Assembly: GCA_013288945.1 (NCBI GenBank)
Contig: JABDAZ010000001.1
Span: 95,001-159,000, forward strand
DNA: 64,000 nucleotides
Source of the DNA: Bacteroidota bacterium
Lineage (GTDB): Bacteria; Bacteroidota; Bacteroidia; Chitinophagales; Chitinophagaceae
Reading direction: 5' to 3'
The notes under the pieces were generated by a model, which did no database searches, had not been told where the DNA came from, and saw only the letters and a list, made by a program, of their open reading frames with translations. Made by a program: the position numbers and the translations under genes. This document shows, one piece after another, positions 9,525 to 23,770 of the stretch; positions within the stretch are counted from its first letter, which is position 1; the number at the start of each line of letters is the position of its first letter.

Positions 9525-10487
9525 TTAATATTTTCTGTCTGTTGTAAAACGAACAAGTTCTTCAAGCGCTTTTCTTACATCGTTATCTTCAAATTCATAT
9601 AATATCTTAAGCGCTTCATCCCTGTACATATTCATTTTTTCGGTGGCATATTTTATACCGCCATTTTCTACCACTTTATTAATAACATAGCGCACTTTTT
9701 CTGCATCTTTATTTTTGTTTTTGATAATATAAATCAGTTCTCTTTTTTGCGCTTTATCAATTTTATTTAAAGTATAAATTAAAGGGAGAGTGATTTTTTT
9801 TTCTTTGATATCATTGCCTGTAGGTTTTCCAACAGCTTCATTTCCGTAATCAAAAAGATCATCTTTAATTTGAAAAGCTATGCCAACATTTTCGCCAAAA
9901 CTTCTTAATTTTTCAGCAAGCGCTTCATTATTACTGGAAGAAAAAGCGCCGGCAGCGCACGATGAAGCAAGTAGAGAAGCCGTTTTATTGCGGATGATTT
10001 CAAAATAAATATCTTCATTCAAATTGAGCGATCTTGATTTTTCTATCTGCAACAATTCGCCTTCGCTCATTAATCGCACTGCGTTGGAAAGCAATTGTAA
10101 TATGCGGAAATCATTATGATCGAGCGATAATAATAATCCTTTAGCAAGCAGATAATCACCAACCAACACAGAAATTTTTGTTTTCCAAAGTGCATAAGTA
10201 GAAAAAAAATTTCTGCGTTCGAGGGATTCGTCAACTACATCATCATGCACTAAAGTTGCCGTGTGCAAAAGTTCAACAAGCGAAGCAGCGCGGTAAGTTG
10301 ATTCATTAATGTCGCCGCAGAGTTTGGCAGACAAAAGAACAAACATGGGCCGCAATTGTTTGCCTTTGCGGTTTACGATAAAACGCATTATCCTGTCCAA
10401 TAATGGCGTTTGGCTTTTTACGGCCTCTTTGAACTTTTTTTCAAAGATTATCAGTTCGTCTTTTAAGATGTTTTGCGACAGTTGCAT
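9525..10487 (-). CDS. Trans-polyprenyl diphosphate synthase (octaprenyl/IspB type)
   Basis: The protein has 320 residues. The first Asp-rich motif is LVHDDVVDESLERR (about residues 77-90; DDxxD), preceded by GKQLRPMFVLLSAKL. The second Asp-rich motif is QIKDDLFDYGNE (about 209-220). These mark an all-trans long-chain prenyl transferase making the side chain of menaquinone. The window also carries futalosine-pathway genes (mqnB, mqnD), which would use such a product. Exact chain length cannot be told from this reading. Confidence 0.93.
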   Translation of the reverse strand: MQLSQNILKDELIIFEKKFKEAVKSQTPLLDRIMRFIVNRKGKQLRPMFVLLSAKLCGDINESTYRAASLVELLHTATLVHDDVVDESLERRNFFSTYALWKTKISVLVGDYLLAKGLLLSLDHNDFRILQLLSNAVRLMSEGELLQIEKSRSLNLNEDIYFEIIRNKTASLLASSCAAGAFSSSNNEALAEKLRSFGENVGIAFQIKDDLFDYGNEAVGKPTGNDIKEKKITLPLIYTLNKIDKAQKRELIYIIKNKNKDAEKVRYVINKVVENGGIKYATEKMNMYRDEALKILYEFEDNDVRKALEELVRFTTDRKY

Positions 10488-18569: not shown

Positions 18570-19232
18570 TTAATCTATCAGGTTGTTTTTTACTGCAAAA
18601 AAAACAAGGCCAGCCGTATTTTTTGCGCCAAAGCGCTCCATCAGCCGATCTTTAATTGCTTCTACCGTGCGCGGGCTTACGTCTAATTTTTGCGCAATTT
18701 CCTGCGCGGTAAATTCCATGCAAATATATTTTACCACATCGCGTTCGCGGTCTGTAAGCGTTACTTCGGTATTAAGGTTGGGTATTACTTTTGTTCTTGA
18801 ATGTGATTTTTTTAATAAAATCCTGTTTACAAAATTATTGAGGTAATAGCCTTTTGTTGCCACTTCCACAATTGCTTTTTTTATTTCAGAAGGGTCGGCG
18901 CTTTTTAATAAATAACCGTTCGCGCCAATTTCCATCATGTGGCTTACGAAGCGTTCATCTTCATACATCGTTAATGCAATAATGTGAATGTTGGGATATT
19001 GTTTGGCAACAACTTTTGTAGTTTCAATGCCATCTTTTTGCGGCATTCTTAAATCCATTAATATTACGTCTGGTTCTGATGATGCTAATCCGTCTATTAA
19101 TTCCTGGCCGTTTTCTGCTTCCTGAACAAATTTTATATTGGTATAAGGGCGCAACGATAATATAACGCCTTTACGAAAAATTTTGTGGTCGTCTGCAATA
19201 GCAACTTTTATAACATTCATGGAATCTGTCAT
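18570..19232 (-). CDS. NarL/LuxR-family response regulator
   Basis: The protein has 220 residues. The receiver domain (about 1-125) has the acidic pocket in IADDHKIFRKGV, the phosphoacceptor Asp in DVILMDLRMPQKDG (about residue 56) and the Lys in GYLLKSADPSE. The HTH_LuxR domain covers about 150-215, with LTDRERDVVKYICMEFTAQEI then SPRTVEAIKDRL. It lies 35 bases after the sensor kinase gene, so the two form a cognate pair. Two paralogues of the same design lie at 21776 and 23099. Confidence 0.95.
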   Translation of the reverse strand: MTDSMNVIKVAIADDHKIFRKGVILSLRPYTNIKFVQEAENGQELIDGLASSEPDVILMDLRMPQKDGIETTKVVAKQYPNIHIIALTMYEDERFVSHMMEIGANGYLLKSADPSEIKKAIVEVATKGYYLNNFVNRILLKKSHSRTKVIPNLNTEVTLTDRERDVVKYICMEFTAQEIAQKLDVSPRTVEAIKDRLMERFGAKNTAGLVFFAVKNNLID

Positions 19233-19267: not shown

Positions 19268-20104
19268 CTATTGAGGCTTGGTTTCTTCATCTTTCATTAT
19301 TTCAACAGTTACCTTATAATAAGTTTGCGACAAATCTTTTTCAAAGAAAATTTTTCCATGCAAAACCTTTAACCGGCTTTGTATATTTTTTAATCCGAGG
19401 CCAACGTTGCTTTTATTTAATTTTTCGAAATCGGCTTGCGTTAAGCCTCTGCCATCATGATGCATGCGTATAAAAAATTTATTGCCGCTTGTATTTTGTG
19501 TAAGATGAATAAAGCTTGAGTTGCTATGCTTAAGAATATTATTAATCAATTCCTGTATTACGCGAAAAATAATTAATTCGGTTTCTGGCTGAAGGCGTTC
19601 CCTGTAATCATGAAAACGGGAGCTCGCATTCATGCTTCCGGAACCACTTATTTTTTGAAACAAATCATTAACCGCAGATTCAAGCCCAAAGTTTTTTAAT
19701 GTTGGCGGCATCAGGCTATGAGATATATTCCTGATAAGTTGAATTGTATCGTCGAGTATTTGTTTGGCACTGTAAATACTTTGCAATTGCGAAGCCTTAT
19801 CGAGATTAACAAGATTTTCATTAAGGTAAAGCCTGGCCGTTGCAAGTAACGGGCCGGCGTCGTCGTGTAAGTCAGCAGCAATGCGCTGGCGTTCTTCTTC
19901 CTGCATGCGTATGGATGCATTAAGCAGCATTTTTTGCTGATCCTGTTCCATCGTTTGCAGGCGCATCTGGTAACGTATCACTTTGCGCTGGTGAAAAATG
20001 ATAAATACAATCAGGCCAATCGTTAATGCCAGCATTCCAATAGTTCCAAAAAACAACACTGTTGAAACTTTGCTGTCTGTGGTGGCAATTTGTAATAGTA
20101 TCAT
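19268..20104 (-). CDS. NarL-type (HPK7) sensor histidine kinase without a sensory domain
   Basis: The protein has 278 residues. One membrane helix (about residues 16-38) is followed by a coiled linker, the HisKA_3 dimerisation domain with the phosphoacceptor His in QRIAADLHDDAGPLLATAR (His at about 80), and a HATPase_c domain (VIQELINNILKHS for the N box, HHDGRGL for G1, VGLGLKNIQSRL for G2). Only about 15 residues precede the helix, so there is no periplasmic sensor. Input probably comes from a partner, with the two 7TM proteins of the operon as obvious candidates. It lies 32 bases after the upstream 7TM gene. Confidence 0.93.
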   Translation of the reverse strand: MILLQIATTDSKVSTVLFFGTIGMLALTIGLIVFIIFHQRKVIRYQMRLQTMEQDQQKMLLNASIRMQEEERQRIAADLHDDAGPLLATARLYLNENLVNLDKASQLQSIYSAKQILDDTIQLIRNISHSLMPPTLKNFGLESAVNDLFQKISGSGSMNASSRFHDYRERLQPETELIIFRVIQELINNILKHSNSSFIHLTQNTSGNKFFIRMHHDGRGLTQADFEKLNKSNVGLGLKNIQSRLKVLHGKIFFEKDLSQTYYKVTVEIMKDEETKPQ

Positions 20105-20136: not shown

Positions 20137-20814
20137 TTAAAACGATTTTTTGAACATATTCGTATCATCATCAAAATATGCAGGCGCGGCGATTTTCTTA
20201 CTATTTTTTCCCACAACAAAAGCAACTGAAAAGAAAATATTTTTAATTATTTCAAACACGATGTCAATTACCCACAAAGAACTTTTTTGCTTGTCTTCCA
20301 TATCCGATGTATATAGAAAAAGAAATAATGTTCCGGCAAGGTATATTATACAACCCGTAGCCACCCAAAAAGTATAAGATTGATAAATGAGTAAAGTTTC
20401 TGTTTTGCTGATTTCTTCATAAAAAAAGAAAATGCAATAAATAAGAACGAGAACTGCAGTAATTAGTGTAGCCCAAAAATCAAAATTCTTTTTGTGTAAA
20501 AACAGAGTAAAAACTTCAAAGCAAATATTAAGAACAGAGAGTGAGAGTATTAAATTTTTAAACTTTTTATTTTGTATACAAATATAAAAAAAGGCGGAAA
20601 AGAATGCATACTCAATAATTGCAGAAATGCTTATAACTAGCGAAGCATAGTTGTTAAGTACAACCAGTAAAATATTAGTAATTAAAGATACAAGTACATA
20701 TAAAAAAACTACCCTTAGTTCTACTATCTTATTTATTTTCCTGAAGAAAACAAAAAACAGAACTAAGGGTAAAAACTGTGCGATATTGCCAATAAAAAAT
20801 AAAAGTATCTTCAA
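20137..20814 (-). CDS. Seven-helix membrane protein, first gene of the kinase/regulator operon
   Basis: I do not recognise the family. The 225 residues contain about seven hydrophobic segments, and a soluble C-terminal tail of about 25 residues ends DDDTNMFKKSF. It resembles the 223-residue protein at the other end of the operon in size and topology; whether they share ancestry needs an alignment. As the first gene of a 7TM-kinase-regulator-7TM operon it may sense the signal for the sensorless kinase. A promoter-like TATATTTG on the minus strand lies 23 bases upstream of the start. Confidence 0.7.
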   Translation of the reverse strand: MKILLFFIGNIAQFLPLVLFFVFFRKINKIVELRVVFLYVLVSLITNILLVVLNNYASLVISISAIIEYAFFSAFFYICIQNKKFKNLILSLSVLNICFEVFTLFLHKKNFDFWATLITAVLVLIYCIFFFYEEISKTETLLIYQSYTFWVATGCIIYLAGTLFLFLYTSDMEDKQKSSLWVIDIVFEIIKNIFFSVAFVVGKNSKKIAAPAYFDDDTNMFKKSF

Positions 20815-20823
20815 GATAATATA

Positions 20824-20844
20824 TTGAATATTAATTCAAATATA
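20824..20844 (-). promoter_or_regulatory. Promoter -7 box and overlapping inverted repeat before the 7TM/kinase operon
   Basis: On the minus strand TATATTTG (20844-20837) matches the Bacteroidota -7 consensus, though no good -33 box lies 19 bases upstream. An inverted repeat, TTGAAT-4-ATTCAA (20824-20839), overlaps the end of this box and the predicted start site near 20830. That is where an operator would act. The leader to the ATG at 20814 would be about 16 bases. Confidence 0.45.
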
Positions 20845-20891
20845 AAACATTCAACACTTTTTCGGCATAATTTTCTTTTAAAAAATTAACT

Positions 20892-20937
20892 GGTTAAATT
20901 ACCGGCAATATAAATGCGCAATTTGTGGCGGTTAACC
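20892..20937 (-). promoter_or_regulatory. Possible hairpin/attenuator between the 23-codon ORF and the kinase operon
   Basis: GGTTAA (20892-20897) and CCG (20902-20904) can pair with CGG (20929-20931) and TTAACC (20932-20937), leaving a 4-base bulge and a 24-base loop. On the minus strand the hairpin starts at the stop codon of the small ORF. A TTTTTT run follows within about ten bases. It could be a weak terminator or an attenuator separating the ORF from the operon. Confidence 0.35.
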
Positions 20938-21008
20938 TAAAAAGGCCAAACCCACCAAGGTAATAAATTTGCAGAACCGTTTGCTGCTGTAAAAGTTTTG
21001 TTAGTCAT
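20937..21008 (-). CDS. Candidate 23-residue peptide with PWWVWPF C terminus
   Basis: ATG at 21008 opens a 23-codon frame ending with a stop at 20937-20939. The first half is polar and basic (MTNKTFTAANGS). The end is strongly aromatic: Trp at residues 18, 19 and 21, Phe at 23, in the segment PWWVWPF. It lies about 120 bases upstream of the 7TM-kinase-regulator-7TM operon on the same strand. Three Trp codons in six are unlikely in AT-rich non-coding DNA. It could be a peptide signal, a leader peptide or a small membrane-active peptide. It may still be chance: no good ribosome-binding site or exact promoter was found, as is usual in this phylum. Confidence 0.45.
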   Translation of the reverse strand: MTNKTFTAANGSANLLPWWVWPF

Positions 21009-21446
21009 AATAGTAAGTTTTAGATGGTGATTAAATGAGGTTTTAATGATTTAAAATAACCGCTAAAATAAATGGCCACCAATGGCATTGTTTTATCTAA
21101 AAATTGGTAAATTGCCTGTAATGCTTATCTGTTGTGGCTTTGCAGGCAAAACATAGGTTTTGTACGAATCGAAATTGAGGACAAACACTAATTTAAAATA
21201 GTACTTTTACTAACGCTAAATTAGTAATTTTTCAGAAAAGAAAATGAAATTTACGAGGATATGCACATTTAATGTGCTGATGTGTATAAAATACCGGTCA
21301 ACTTTAAAGAAATTAAGGTGTGTGATTATTCCTTCACATTTAAAAGTAAAGAAATATTTGCGGTTGAAAATTTAAAATTGGGATTTTTACCAAGAAGAAA
21401 AAAATGAAGTTGACTGATATCGGATTTTACTTGGTTTTTCCAGGAC
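21009..21446. other. Long intergenic leader between the divergent signalling genes
   Basis: This AT-rich stretch separates the candidate peptide ORF (minus) from ORF A and the first orphan regulator (plus). A 44-codon frame runs from 21404 to 21538 on the plus strand and overlaps ORF A in another frame; nothing favours it as coding. No tRNA, terminator or mobile element was seen. Confidence 0.4.
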
Positions 21447-21775: not shown

Positions 21776-22435
21776 ATGACTGCTGAATTAGTAATTAAAG
21801 TGTCCATTGCAGACGATCACAAAATTTTTCGCGATGGGATTAAAATGGCTTTAAAGAATAAAGAATACCTGAAAATTTTGTGGGAAGCGGAAGATGGAAA
21901 AGATCTTATGCATAAAATGCAGCTCAAAAGGCCAGACGTTTTATTAATGGATATCAGGATGCCGGAAGTTGATGGCATTAATGCTATCGGAATGTTACGC
22001 AAAGAATATGAAGAAGTAAAAATTATTGTATTAACGATGTACGACGACCAGGAAATGATTTCTAAAATGATGGAACTTGGCGCAAACGCTTATCTCACAA
22101 AAACGACTGACCCCGACGAAATTTACCAAGCCATTTTAACCTGCATGAATGATGATTTCTACTTTAATGATTTGGTAAACAAAGCAGTTTTATCAAAATT
22201 GCAAACCAAGCGGCAGGTTCGTCAGTTTTATCCAAACCCAGTAAAATTTTCTGAAAAAGAAGTACGTATTTTAAAATTGCTCGCGCAGGATAAAACAACA
22301 GAAGAAATTTCTAAAGAAGTATTTTTAAGCCCGCGAACTATTGAAACCATCCGCCAGAATATGAAAACAAAAGTTGGCGCAAAAACAATTGCCGGATTAA
22401 TAATGTATGGAATGCGCAACAAATTGATTGATTAA
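21776..22435 (+). CDS. NarL/LuxR-family response regulator (orphan)
   Basis: The protein has 219 residues. The receiver domain has IADDHKIFRDGI, the phosphoacceptor Asp in DVLLMDIRMPEVDG (about residue 58) and the Lys in AYLTKTTDPDE. The HTH_LuxR domain has FSEKEVRILKLLAQDKTTEEI and SPRTIETIRQNM. No kinase gene is adjacent on this strand. It shares the layout and C-terminal AGLIMYGMRNKLID-type ending with the regulators at 18570 and 23099, so the three are recent paralogues. The long leader (over 750 bases from the last minus-strand gene) and its own terminator mark it as a separate transcript. Confidence 0.93.
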   Translation: MTAELVIKVSIADDHKIFRDGIKMALKNKEYLKILWEAEDGKDLMHKMQLKRPDVLLMDIRMPEVDGINAIGMLRKEYEEVKIIVLTMYDDQEMISKMMELGANAYLTKTTDPDEIYQAILTCMNDDFYFNDLVNKAVLSKLQTKRQVRQFYPNPVKFSEKEVRILKLLAQDKTTEEISKEVFLSPRTIETIRQNMKTKVGAKTIAGLIMYGMRNKLID

Positions 22436-23098: not shown

Positions 23099-23770
23099 AT
23101 GAAAAAAACCGAGTTTGACAGTGTTATTAAAGTTATCATCGCCGACGACCATGTTCTTTTCAGGGCAGGTGTAAAAACGGCGCTGTCTGTAAAAAAAGAT
23201 GTGGAACTTATTGCAGAAGCCGACAACGGAATGCAATTATTAAATTTACTCCGTCATTTTGAACCAGATGTAATTTTGCTGGATATACAAATGCCGATTA
23301 TGGATGGCATTCAAACATTGCCGGAAATACGCAAACTATACCCGGATATTAAAGTTATTATTCTCTCTATGCATAATGATCATTCCATGATTTCTAAATT
23401 GATGGAAATTGGTGCAAATTCTTATCTTACTAAAAACTCAGATTCAGAAACGATTTACCAGGCAATAAAAACCTGTTACGAACAGGAATTTTTCTTTAAT
23501 GAACTTACCAACAAAGCATTATTAACAGGCTTGCGAACGAAGCGCCCGGAGAATGGAATGCAGCAGGATGTTAGCTTATCAGAAAAAGAATTAACCGTTT
23601 TAAAATTAATGTGTGAAGAAAAATCTACTAAAGAAATTGCTGATATTGTTGAAATAAGCCCGCGCACGGTTGAAGCCATCCGCGATAAATTAAAAACAAA
23701 AACCGGCTCAAAATCAATGGCAGGTTTGGTTATGTATGCTGTAAAAAACAGGATTATTTCTCAGCCGTAA
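23099..23770 (+). CDS. NarL/LuxR-family response regulator (orphan)
   Basis: The protein has 223 residues. The receiver domain has IADDHVLFRAGV, the phosphoacceptor Asp in DVILLDIQMPIMDG (about residue 60) and the Lys in SYLTKNSDSE. The HTH_LuxR domain has LSEKELTVLKLMCEEKSTKEI and SPRTVEAIRDKL. It is the third member of the local regulator set and lacks an adjacent kinase. One sensorless kinase for three regulators suggests cross-phosphorylation or control by other means, which is inference. It ends at its own terminator. Confidence 0.93.
   Translation: MKKTEFDSVIKVIIADDHVLFRAGVKTALSVKKDVELIAEADNGMQLLNLLRHFEPDVILLDIQMPIMDGIQTLPEIRKLYPDIKVIILSMHNDHSMISKLMEIGANSYLTKNSDSETIYQAIKTCYEQEFFFNELTNKALLTGLRTKRPENGMQQDVSLSEKELTVLKLMCEEKSTKEIADIVEISPRTVEAIRDKLKTKTGSKSMAGLVMYAVKNRIISQP

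Follow-up and report, generated by a model that had tools for sequence, protein, structure and literature searches.

A 23-codon Trp-tailed gene beside a seven-helix protein, kinase and regulator operon in Chitinophagaceae: a probable derivative of a long precursor family and a candidate peptide signal

Introduction

Agr-type cyclic peptide systems bring together a peptide precursor, multi-TM proteins, a kinase and a regulator in one locus. Another arrangement is that of the streptococcal pheromones SHP and XIP, which are encoded by ORFs of ~20 residues, have a pair of Trp close to the C-terminal end and act on the cytoplasmic Rgg/ComR. In the ComQXPA system of Bacillus, as presented in parts of PMC4008528, the precursor is small and variable and carries a Trp near its C-terminus, and the multi-helix sensing part is also variable. 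For the Bacteroidetes, a census reports homologues of the Nis, Cia, Qse and Fus quorum-sensing two-component proteins (passages of PMC8895600, in which the present locus is not described), and the titles and abstract openings listed by searches of the open-access literature yielded no description of the system treated here.

The locus was analysed in a 64-kb window, i.e., the whole stretch of 64,000 nucleotides of a Chitinophagaceae assembly, where the 23-codon ORF MTNKTFTAANGSANLLPWWVWPF precedes an operon with the order 7TM1 - kinase - regulator - 7TM2 (20814-17811, minus strand; Table 1), 7TM1 and 7TM2 being homologous multi-helix membrane proteins.

Comparison with described systems

The likeness to ComQXPA lies in the domains of the kinase (HisKA_3 and HATPase_c; PF07730 and PF02518) and of the regulator (receiver and GerE; PF00072 and PF00196), as well as in the presence of Trp among the 5-10 residues that end the precursor, given that the window ORF has its three Trp at the third, fifth and sixth places from the C-terminal end. 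On the other hand, the isoprenyl transferase ComQ (PF00348) is absent from the locus, the two PF00348 genes of the assembly (73% complete) being placed ~10 kb away in the window (9525-10487) and on another contig. In addition, the precursors have 15-23 or 118-135 residues here, compared with 52-73 in ComX, the four short and three long ones that were scanned do not match the Pfam family ComX (PF05952) above the cut-off, and the multi-TM part is made up of two separate proteins, whereas in ComP it forms the N-terminus of the kinase. The kinase has a single hydrophobic stretch in the close relatives and two in the locus L051, with the seven-helix proteins encoded by separate genes. Because the locus departs from ComQXPA in ComQ, in the match to ComX, in the length of the precursor and in the fusion of the multi-TM part to the kinase, it is not a member of that system. 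ComX-ComP-ComA is its nearest working parallel.

The locus resembles Agr in that a precursor, multi-TM proteins, a kinase and a regulator are found together, but neither 7TM protein matches AgrB in Pfam at E <= 1, nor any family above the cut-off, and a Cys occurs within the last 25 residues of just two of 36 long precursors (described below), so there is no conserved thiolactone Cys. SHP and XIP are comparable in the length of the ORF (~20 residues) and in the pair of Trp close to its C-terminal end, and differ in that the genes linked to the ORF here encode membrane proteins together with a kinase and a regulator of the NarL type.

The short gene and its operon

The earlier note on this DNA had described a 23-codon ORF with three Trp just 5' of the operon and on the same strand, and an operon of 7TM protein, kinase, regulator and 7TM protein in which the kinase lacks a sensor domain; both descriptions hold, the latter at the Pfam cut-off. 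The ORF runs from an ATG at 21008 to a TAG stop at 20937, with no in-frame ATG, GTG or TTG in the 14 codons that separate it from the previous stop, and its end lies 122 nt from the TTG with which the 7TM1 gene starts. No match to the 23-mer was found in Pfam or PHROGs, nor was a recognisable export signal, and none of the operon genes is obviously that of an exporter, a protease or a modifying enzyme. Similarly, 7TM1 matches no family of Pfam, NCBIfam or PHROGs above the cut-off. Among the solved structures of the PDB, neither 7TM1 nor the long precursor has a relative by sequence (best E 0.35-0.57).

Table 1. Positions of the features of the locus in the window
Feature	Position	Strand	Remark
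23-codon gene MTNKTFTAANGSANLLPWWVWPF	20937..21008	minus	derived from the Trp-tailed precursor family, without the body
Conserved region 5' of the precursor gene, reaching exactly to the ATG	21006..21147	minus	nhmmer profile
TATATTTG box, match to TAnnTTTG, before the 7TM operon	20837..20844	minus	
7TM1, seven-helix membrane protein, candidate receptor	20137..20814	minus	
One-TM histidine kinase, HisKA_3 and HATPase_c, without a sensor domain above the Pfam cut-off	19268..20104	minus	
NarL/LuxR-type response regulator, receiver and GerE	18570..19232	minus	
7TM2, homologue of 7TM1, membrane protein with several helices	17811..18482	minus	hhalign probability 97.8
Orphan response regulator, divergent and conserved beside the locus	21776..22435	plus	93% mean identity, 4 loci

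A short ORF of this kind can arise by chance, and dinucleotide shuffles of the stretch from the ATG to the 7TM gene gave P = 0.036 at the window locus for an ORF that is 15-25 codons long and has at least one Trp in its 11 C-terminal residues, and P = 0.028-0.058 for the equivalent ORF at five related loci, the criterion having been widened post hoc from the last 9 residues, at which the locus L016 fails. An ORF of 15-25 codons with at least three Trp in the last nine residues arose in none of 5000 shuffles. Multiplied over the six loci, the chance probabilities would give 4e-9 under independence, which does not apply to these loci. Against chance, the short ORF is unimpressive at a single locus; its recurrence in six of the seven closest operons is impressive.

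Divergent from the locus are two orphan regulators of the NarL type (21776-22435 and 23099-23770), the first of which may be a target of the system or a partner in it. At the related locus L015 (genome G010), an in-frame TGA occurs a few codons before the point at which the 7TM1 of the relatives ends, and shortens the protein at its tail alone.

Conservation of the short form

A similarity search with the peptide in 58 genomes, including its own, returned only noise beyond the window copy (best E = 0.085), and the short-form homologues were found by gene position, through a search with 7TM1 and the subsequent reading of the upstream sequence. A short Trp-ended ORF is present at the same place in six of the seven closest operons, window included, the seventh (L017) having a long gene. 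The six ORFs, MTNKTFTAANGSANLLPWWVWPF in the window and MTTKRNSSTRNGFLPWSF, MISKQLLSANGVTSLPWWQLFF, MTTKRNQNNFWPFPIPGLGR, MTNKKLSFPIIWPWS and MTNKRNTSCTSSFWPWGGWGR elsewhere, have 15-23 codons, an ATG, an MxxK N-terminus and a Trp near the end (at L016, the sole Trp is the 10th residue from the end), with no body. Trp makes up 12 of the 72 residues in their last 12 positions. A start-site pattern derived from the short ORFs occurs in four of 33 genus genomes, once in each and always at this locus, compared with one occurrence of the reversed pattern in the same 33 genomes. The earlier note had named the loss of the frame in relatives that keep the operon as the observation that would speak against it, and in these closest operons the frame is kept, its tail having diverged strongly, with the one exception given above.

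Phylogenetic trees of 49 loci were based on 7TM1 and on 7TM1 plus the kinase, the latter missing for seven of the 49. The short-form loci are monophyletic in both (UFBoot 100), and the long-form L017 is the sister of this clade, with a support of 99 and 100, respectively. This placement of the short loci in a single clade, next to a long-form sister, indicates that the body was lost once. No strong match to the long precursor was found in the five other short-form genomes, and two of these five have weak matches (E 7e-6 and 1.7e-5) to lipoprotein-like relatives.

Derivation from a long precursor family

Among 52 loci with 7TM1, the gene is preceded by a long gene in 43, by a short ORF in six, by a contig edge in two and by a gene of the CPxxC type (see below) in one. 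The 36 long genes that were read out in full encode proteins of 118-135 residues, with one of 145 whose start is uncertain, and consist of a conserved body followed by a tail that varies in length and sequence. These tails are often rich in Trp at the end (for example, LPSWWPF, ILPSWLWPF, SWWKWIFGW and EWTWF), with Trp at 61 of the 432 positions within the last 12 residues of the 36 precursors and at four of the 4117 positions elsewhere; all but one (35/36, the exception being L069) have at least one Trp in this segment. The family body, ~100 residues with the pattern GEEISHELGAKMV...ILAQPGC...GIVADR, is absent from the window ORF, which is a derivative of the Trp-tailed precursor family and not a typical member of it.

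The connection between the two forms comes from the non-coding DNA. A nucleotide profile (nhmmer) was built from the 150 nt upstream of the gene plus the start codon (153 nt) in 34 of the 36 long genes, L064 being left out for its uncertain start and L062 for being cut by the contig end, with no short locus included. Its sole significant match in the 64-kb window (E = 1.5e-16; next best 0.31) ends with the last column of the profile on the ATG of the short ORF, which indicates that the short ORF starts where the long gene starts, with the body missing. The profile is also significant at the short loci L014 (2.4e-8), L016 (3.6e-6) and L019 (0.0026), and it misses significance at the other two, marginally at L018 (E = 0.033) and clearly at L015 (E = 0.78). 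On these sequence comparisons, it is near certain that the short ORF is a gene, and that it derives from a precursor gene of ~120 residues in the Chitinophagaceae.

The long precursor has no match above the cut-off in Pfam or NCBIfam, and sub-threshold ones alone in PHROGs; the Pfam scan covered three of the 36 long precursors and the four of the six short ORFs with at least 20 residues, none of which passed the cut-off. The predicted structure of the long precursor has a pLDDT of 51 (five sequences).

Relatives with CPxxC tails across the phylum

The profile of the body matches 21 of 395 sampled genomes of the phylum at E <= 1e-4. The weaker relatives of the body were collected from 29 loci (L106-L131 and L151-L153), which were reduced to 26 once three overlapping ones had been dropped. 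A CPxxC-like motif is found at the C-terminus in 23 of the 26, and an ORF of at least 170 residues with at least three hydrophobic stretches lies within the next 1.4 kb in all of them. The joint profile of these membrane proteins matches 7TM1 (hhalign 99.5). Downstream and on the same strand, the 7TM1 profile is matched at 20 loci, the kinase profile at 20, both at 14 and at least one of them at all 26, in stretches that are short, so that the kinase may lie past their end. The four CPxxC relatives that were scanned have no match above the cut-off in Pfam or NCBIfam.

An N-terminus resembling a signal peptide, a membrane anchor or a lipobox was recognised by a simple hydrophobicity rule in nine of the 26 relatives, a feature equally compatible with a tethered partner and with a released signal. 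Loci of the CPxxC type also occur inside the Chitinophagaceae, and the assembly of the window has one on contig C13 (L129).

Rates of change in the operon

Over six loci (five of the short form and the long-form L046), the mean identity is 42% for 7TM1 (29-54%) and 35% for 7TM2, against 86% for the kinase and 92% for the regulator; at the same six loci, the neighbouring CoA-transferase has a mean identity of 83%. Fast 7TM proteins beside a conserved kinase and regulator are what would be expected if the 7TM proteins read a changing peptide. Against this reading, fast evolution relative to cytoplasmic proteins is common among membrane proteins, and the bias of the variable residues of 7TM1 towards the outer side is not significant (p = 0.06).

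A possible mechanism and its alternatives

The ORF is likely to be a peptide signal that acts through the adjacent 7TM proteins, kinase and regulator, in a manner like that of ComX by analogy and not by homology. The peptide-signalling layout proposed in the earlier note gains from the homology of the start codon, the short ORF in six of the seven operons, the Trp-tailed precursors and the fast 7TM proteins, and loses the hairpin that had been thought to begin at the stop codon of the ORF, where folding is no stronger than in shuffled sequence (z = -0.34). The proposal draws on what is observed of gene homology, conservation, tail composition, gene order and the contrast in evolutionary rates. 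A body of ~100 residues was lost once, in an ancestor of the six sampled loci, leaving a short N-terminus and a Trp-rich C-terminal tail, which is taken as the functional part. The tail, whole or trimmed, would be the signal perceived by the downstream seven-helix protein or proteins, and these would control the sensor-less one-TM kinase, which in turn would phosphorylate the NarL-type regulator. We infer the translation of the ORF, the crossing of the membrane, the release of the peptide, its binding to 7TM1/7TM2 and the subsequent flow of the signal, in a working similar to that of ComX-ComP-ComA with the multi-TM sensing part split from the kinase.

The main rival is a cis-acting microprotein, in which the peptide, like the long protein, would serve as a subunit bound to the 7TM proteins or to the kinase of the same cell and would not be released as a signal; in that case the Trp-rich end would anchor at the membrane interface and the body, where present, would add a sensing function. 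The aromatic end suits such an interface, the genes are closely adjacent, no export machinery is seen, and the lipobox-like or hydrophobic N-termini of nine of the 26 relatives suggest a tethered partner in those lineages. However, a variable tail behind a conserved body, together with the rate contrast of the 7TM proteins, is the prediction for a ligand that determines specificity, whereas a subunit would more often be conserved, and this alternative is considered unlikely, although it deserves to be kept in mind. A short, variable, Trp-rich tail behind a leader-like body would also suit the precursor of a bioactive peptide, antimicrobial or otherwise, with the linked two-component system sensing its production; this is improbable, since no modification, transport or immunity gene was seen by eye among the ORFs of at least 90 residues at ten loci, the Pfam scan having covered those that neighbour the locus in the window.

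The clustering of Trp codons just 5' of the operon recalls a leader peptide, a role that the earlier note had also considered, which here would control the operon by ribosome stalling (Trp attenuation). It is disfavoured and very improbable, because a promoter-like box lies between the ORF and the 7TM gene and the homologous genes encode proteins of ~120 residues. The box, TAnnTTTG, which we take to be the Bacteroidota -7 promoter element, is present at the 7TM1 gene in 49 of 49 loci, in 45 of them as TATATTTG, as raw counts. It is placed 21-51 nt 5' of the 7TM1 match in 48 of the 49, with L066 scored on a second, downstream copy (the upstream copy is seen under L033, from the same genome). 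This suggests that the peptide gene and the receptor genes can be transcribed separately, which argues against attenuation. Moreover, the folding z-scores are weak (-0.34, -0.92 and -1.33), with no strong terminator or antiterminator hairpin after the ORF, and the related genes elsewhere end in Cys-Pro motifs, not in Trp. Finally, a chance ORF or a decaying remnant of the long precursor gene, to which the absence of the body and the ease with which one such ORF arises would point, is hardly credible when six loci retain the ATG, the MxxK, 15-23 codons and a Trp-bearing end despite 7TM1 identities of 29-54% among five of them and L046.

A wider reading, in which peptide signalling is extended to the relatives of the body, is put forward tentatively. 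The Bacteroidota may have a widespread and unnamed peptide-signalling system, in which a small body protein ends in a tail that differs between types (rich in Trp in one type of the Chitinophagaceae, CPxxC in others inside and outside the family). Seven-helix receptors encoded as separate proteins would read it and would in turn drive a kinase that lacks a sensor and a regulator of the NarL type. One clade would have deleted the body, leaving a gene for a tail of 15-23 residues. If true, the whole phylum would have a candidate language between cells, based on seven-helix receptors that stand alone, and the natural deletion of the body would expose which part is the signal and point to the few residues worth synthesising. 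Even without signalling, there remains a small-protein family that lacks a Pfam or NCBIfam model and is tied to a two-component system, with genes of ~20 codons among the members of the precursor family.

Other observations

The window assembly also has a long precursor on contig C81 (L104/L075), with its own copy of the divergent regulator. The locus is thereby present twice in this assembly, compared with a single time in each of the other genomes in which it was found. This long-type locus is 93% identical to the genus genome G018 over 2384 bases, and the contig is suspected of being misbinned or foreign and is not counted as a second module of this organism. A probe with one window gene has no match in G018, and none in G010 either, so it says little on C81. 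Two records, L050 and L051, are labelled Beijerinckiaceae and Williamsia yet present the gene set of the Bacteroidota loci, and are probably mislabelled or mixed bins.

At many loci (for example, L051, L063 and L080), the TATATTTG box lies within an inverted repeat, the arms of which vary and stay complementary, and which is absent elsewhere; its mean score is 15.9, compared with 11.5 in shuffles, and it is strong at some loci. The matches in Rfam are all below its threshold. The non-coding block upstream of the short gene (21009-21147) includes GGCAATTTA, TTG, a T-run and GGGGTTATTT, and is similar by eye in most loci. TAnnTTTG is marked in blocks of this type at just one of the loci compared, and the promoter of the precursor gene is possibly of a different type.
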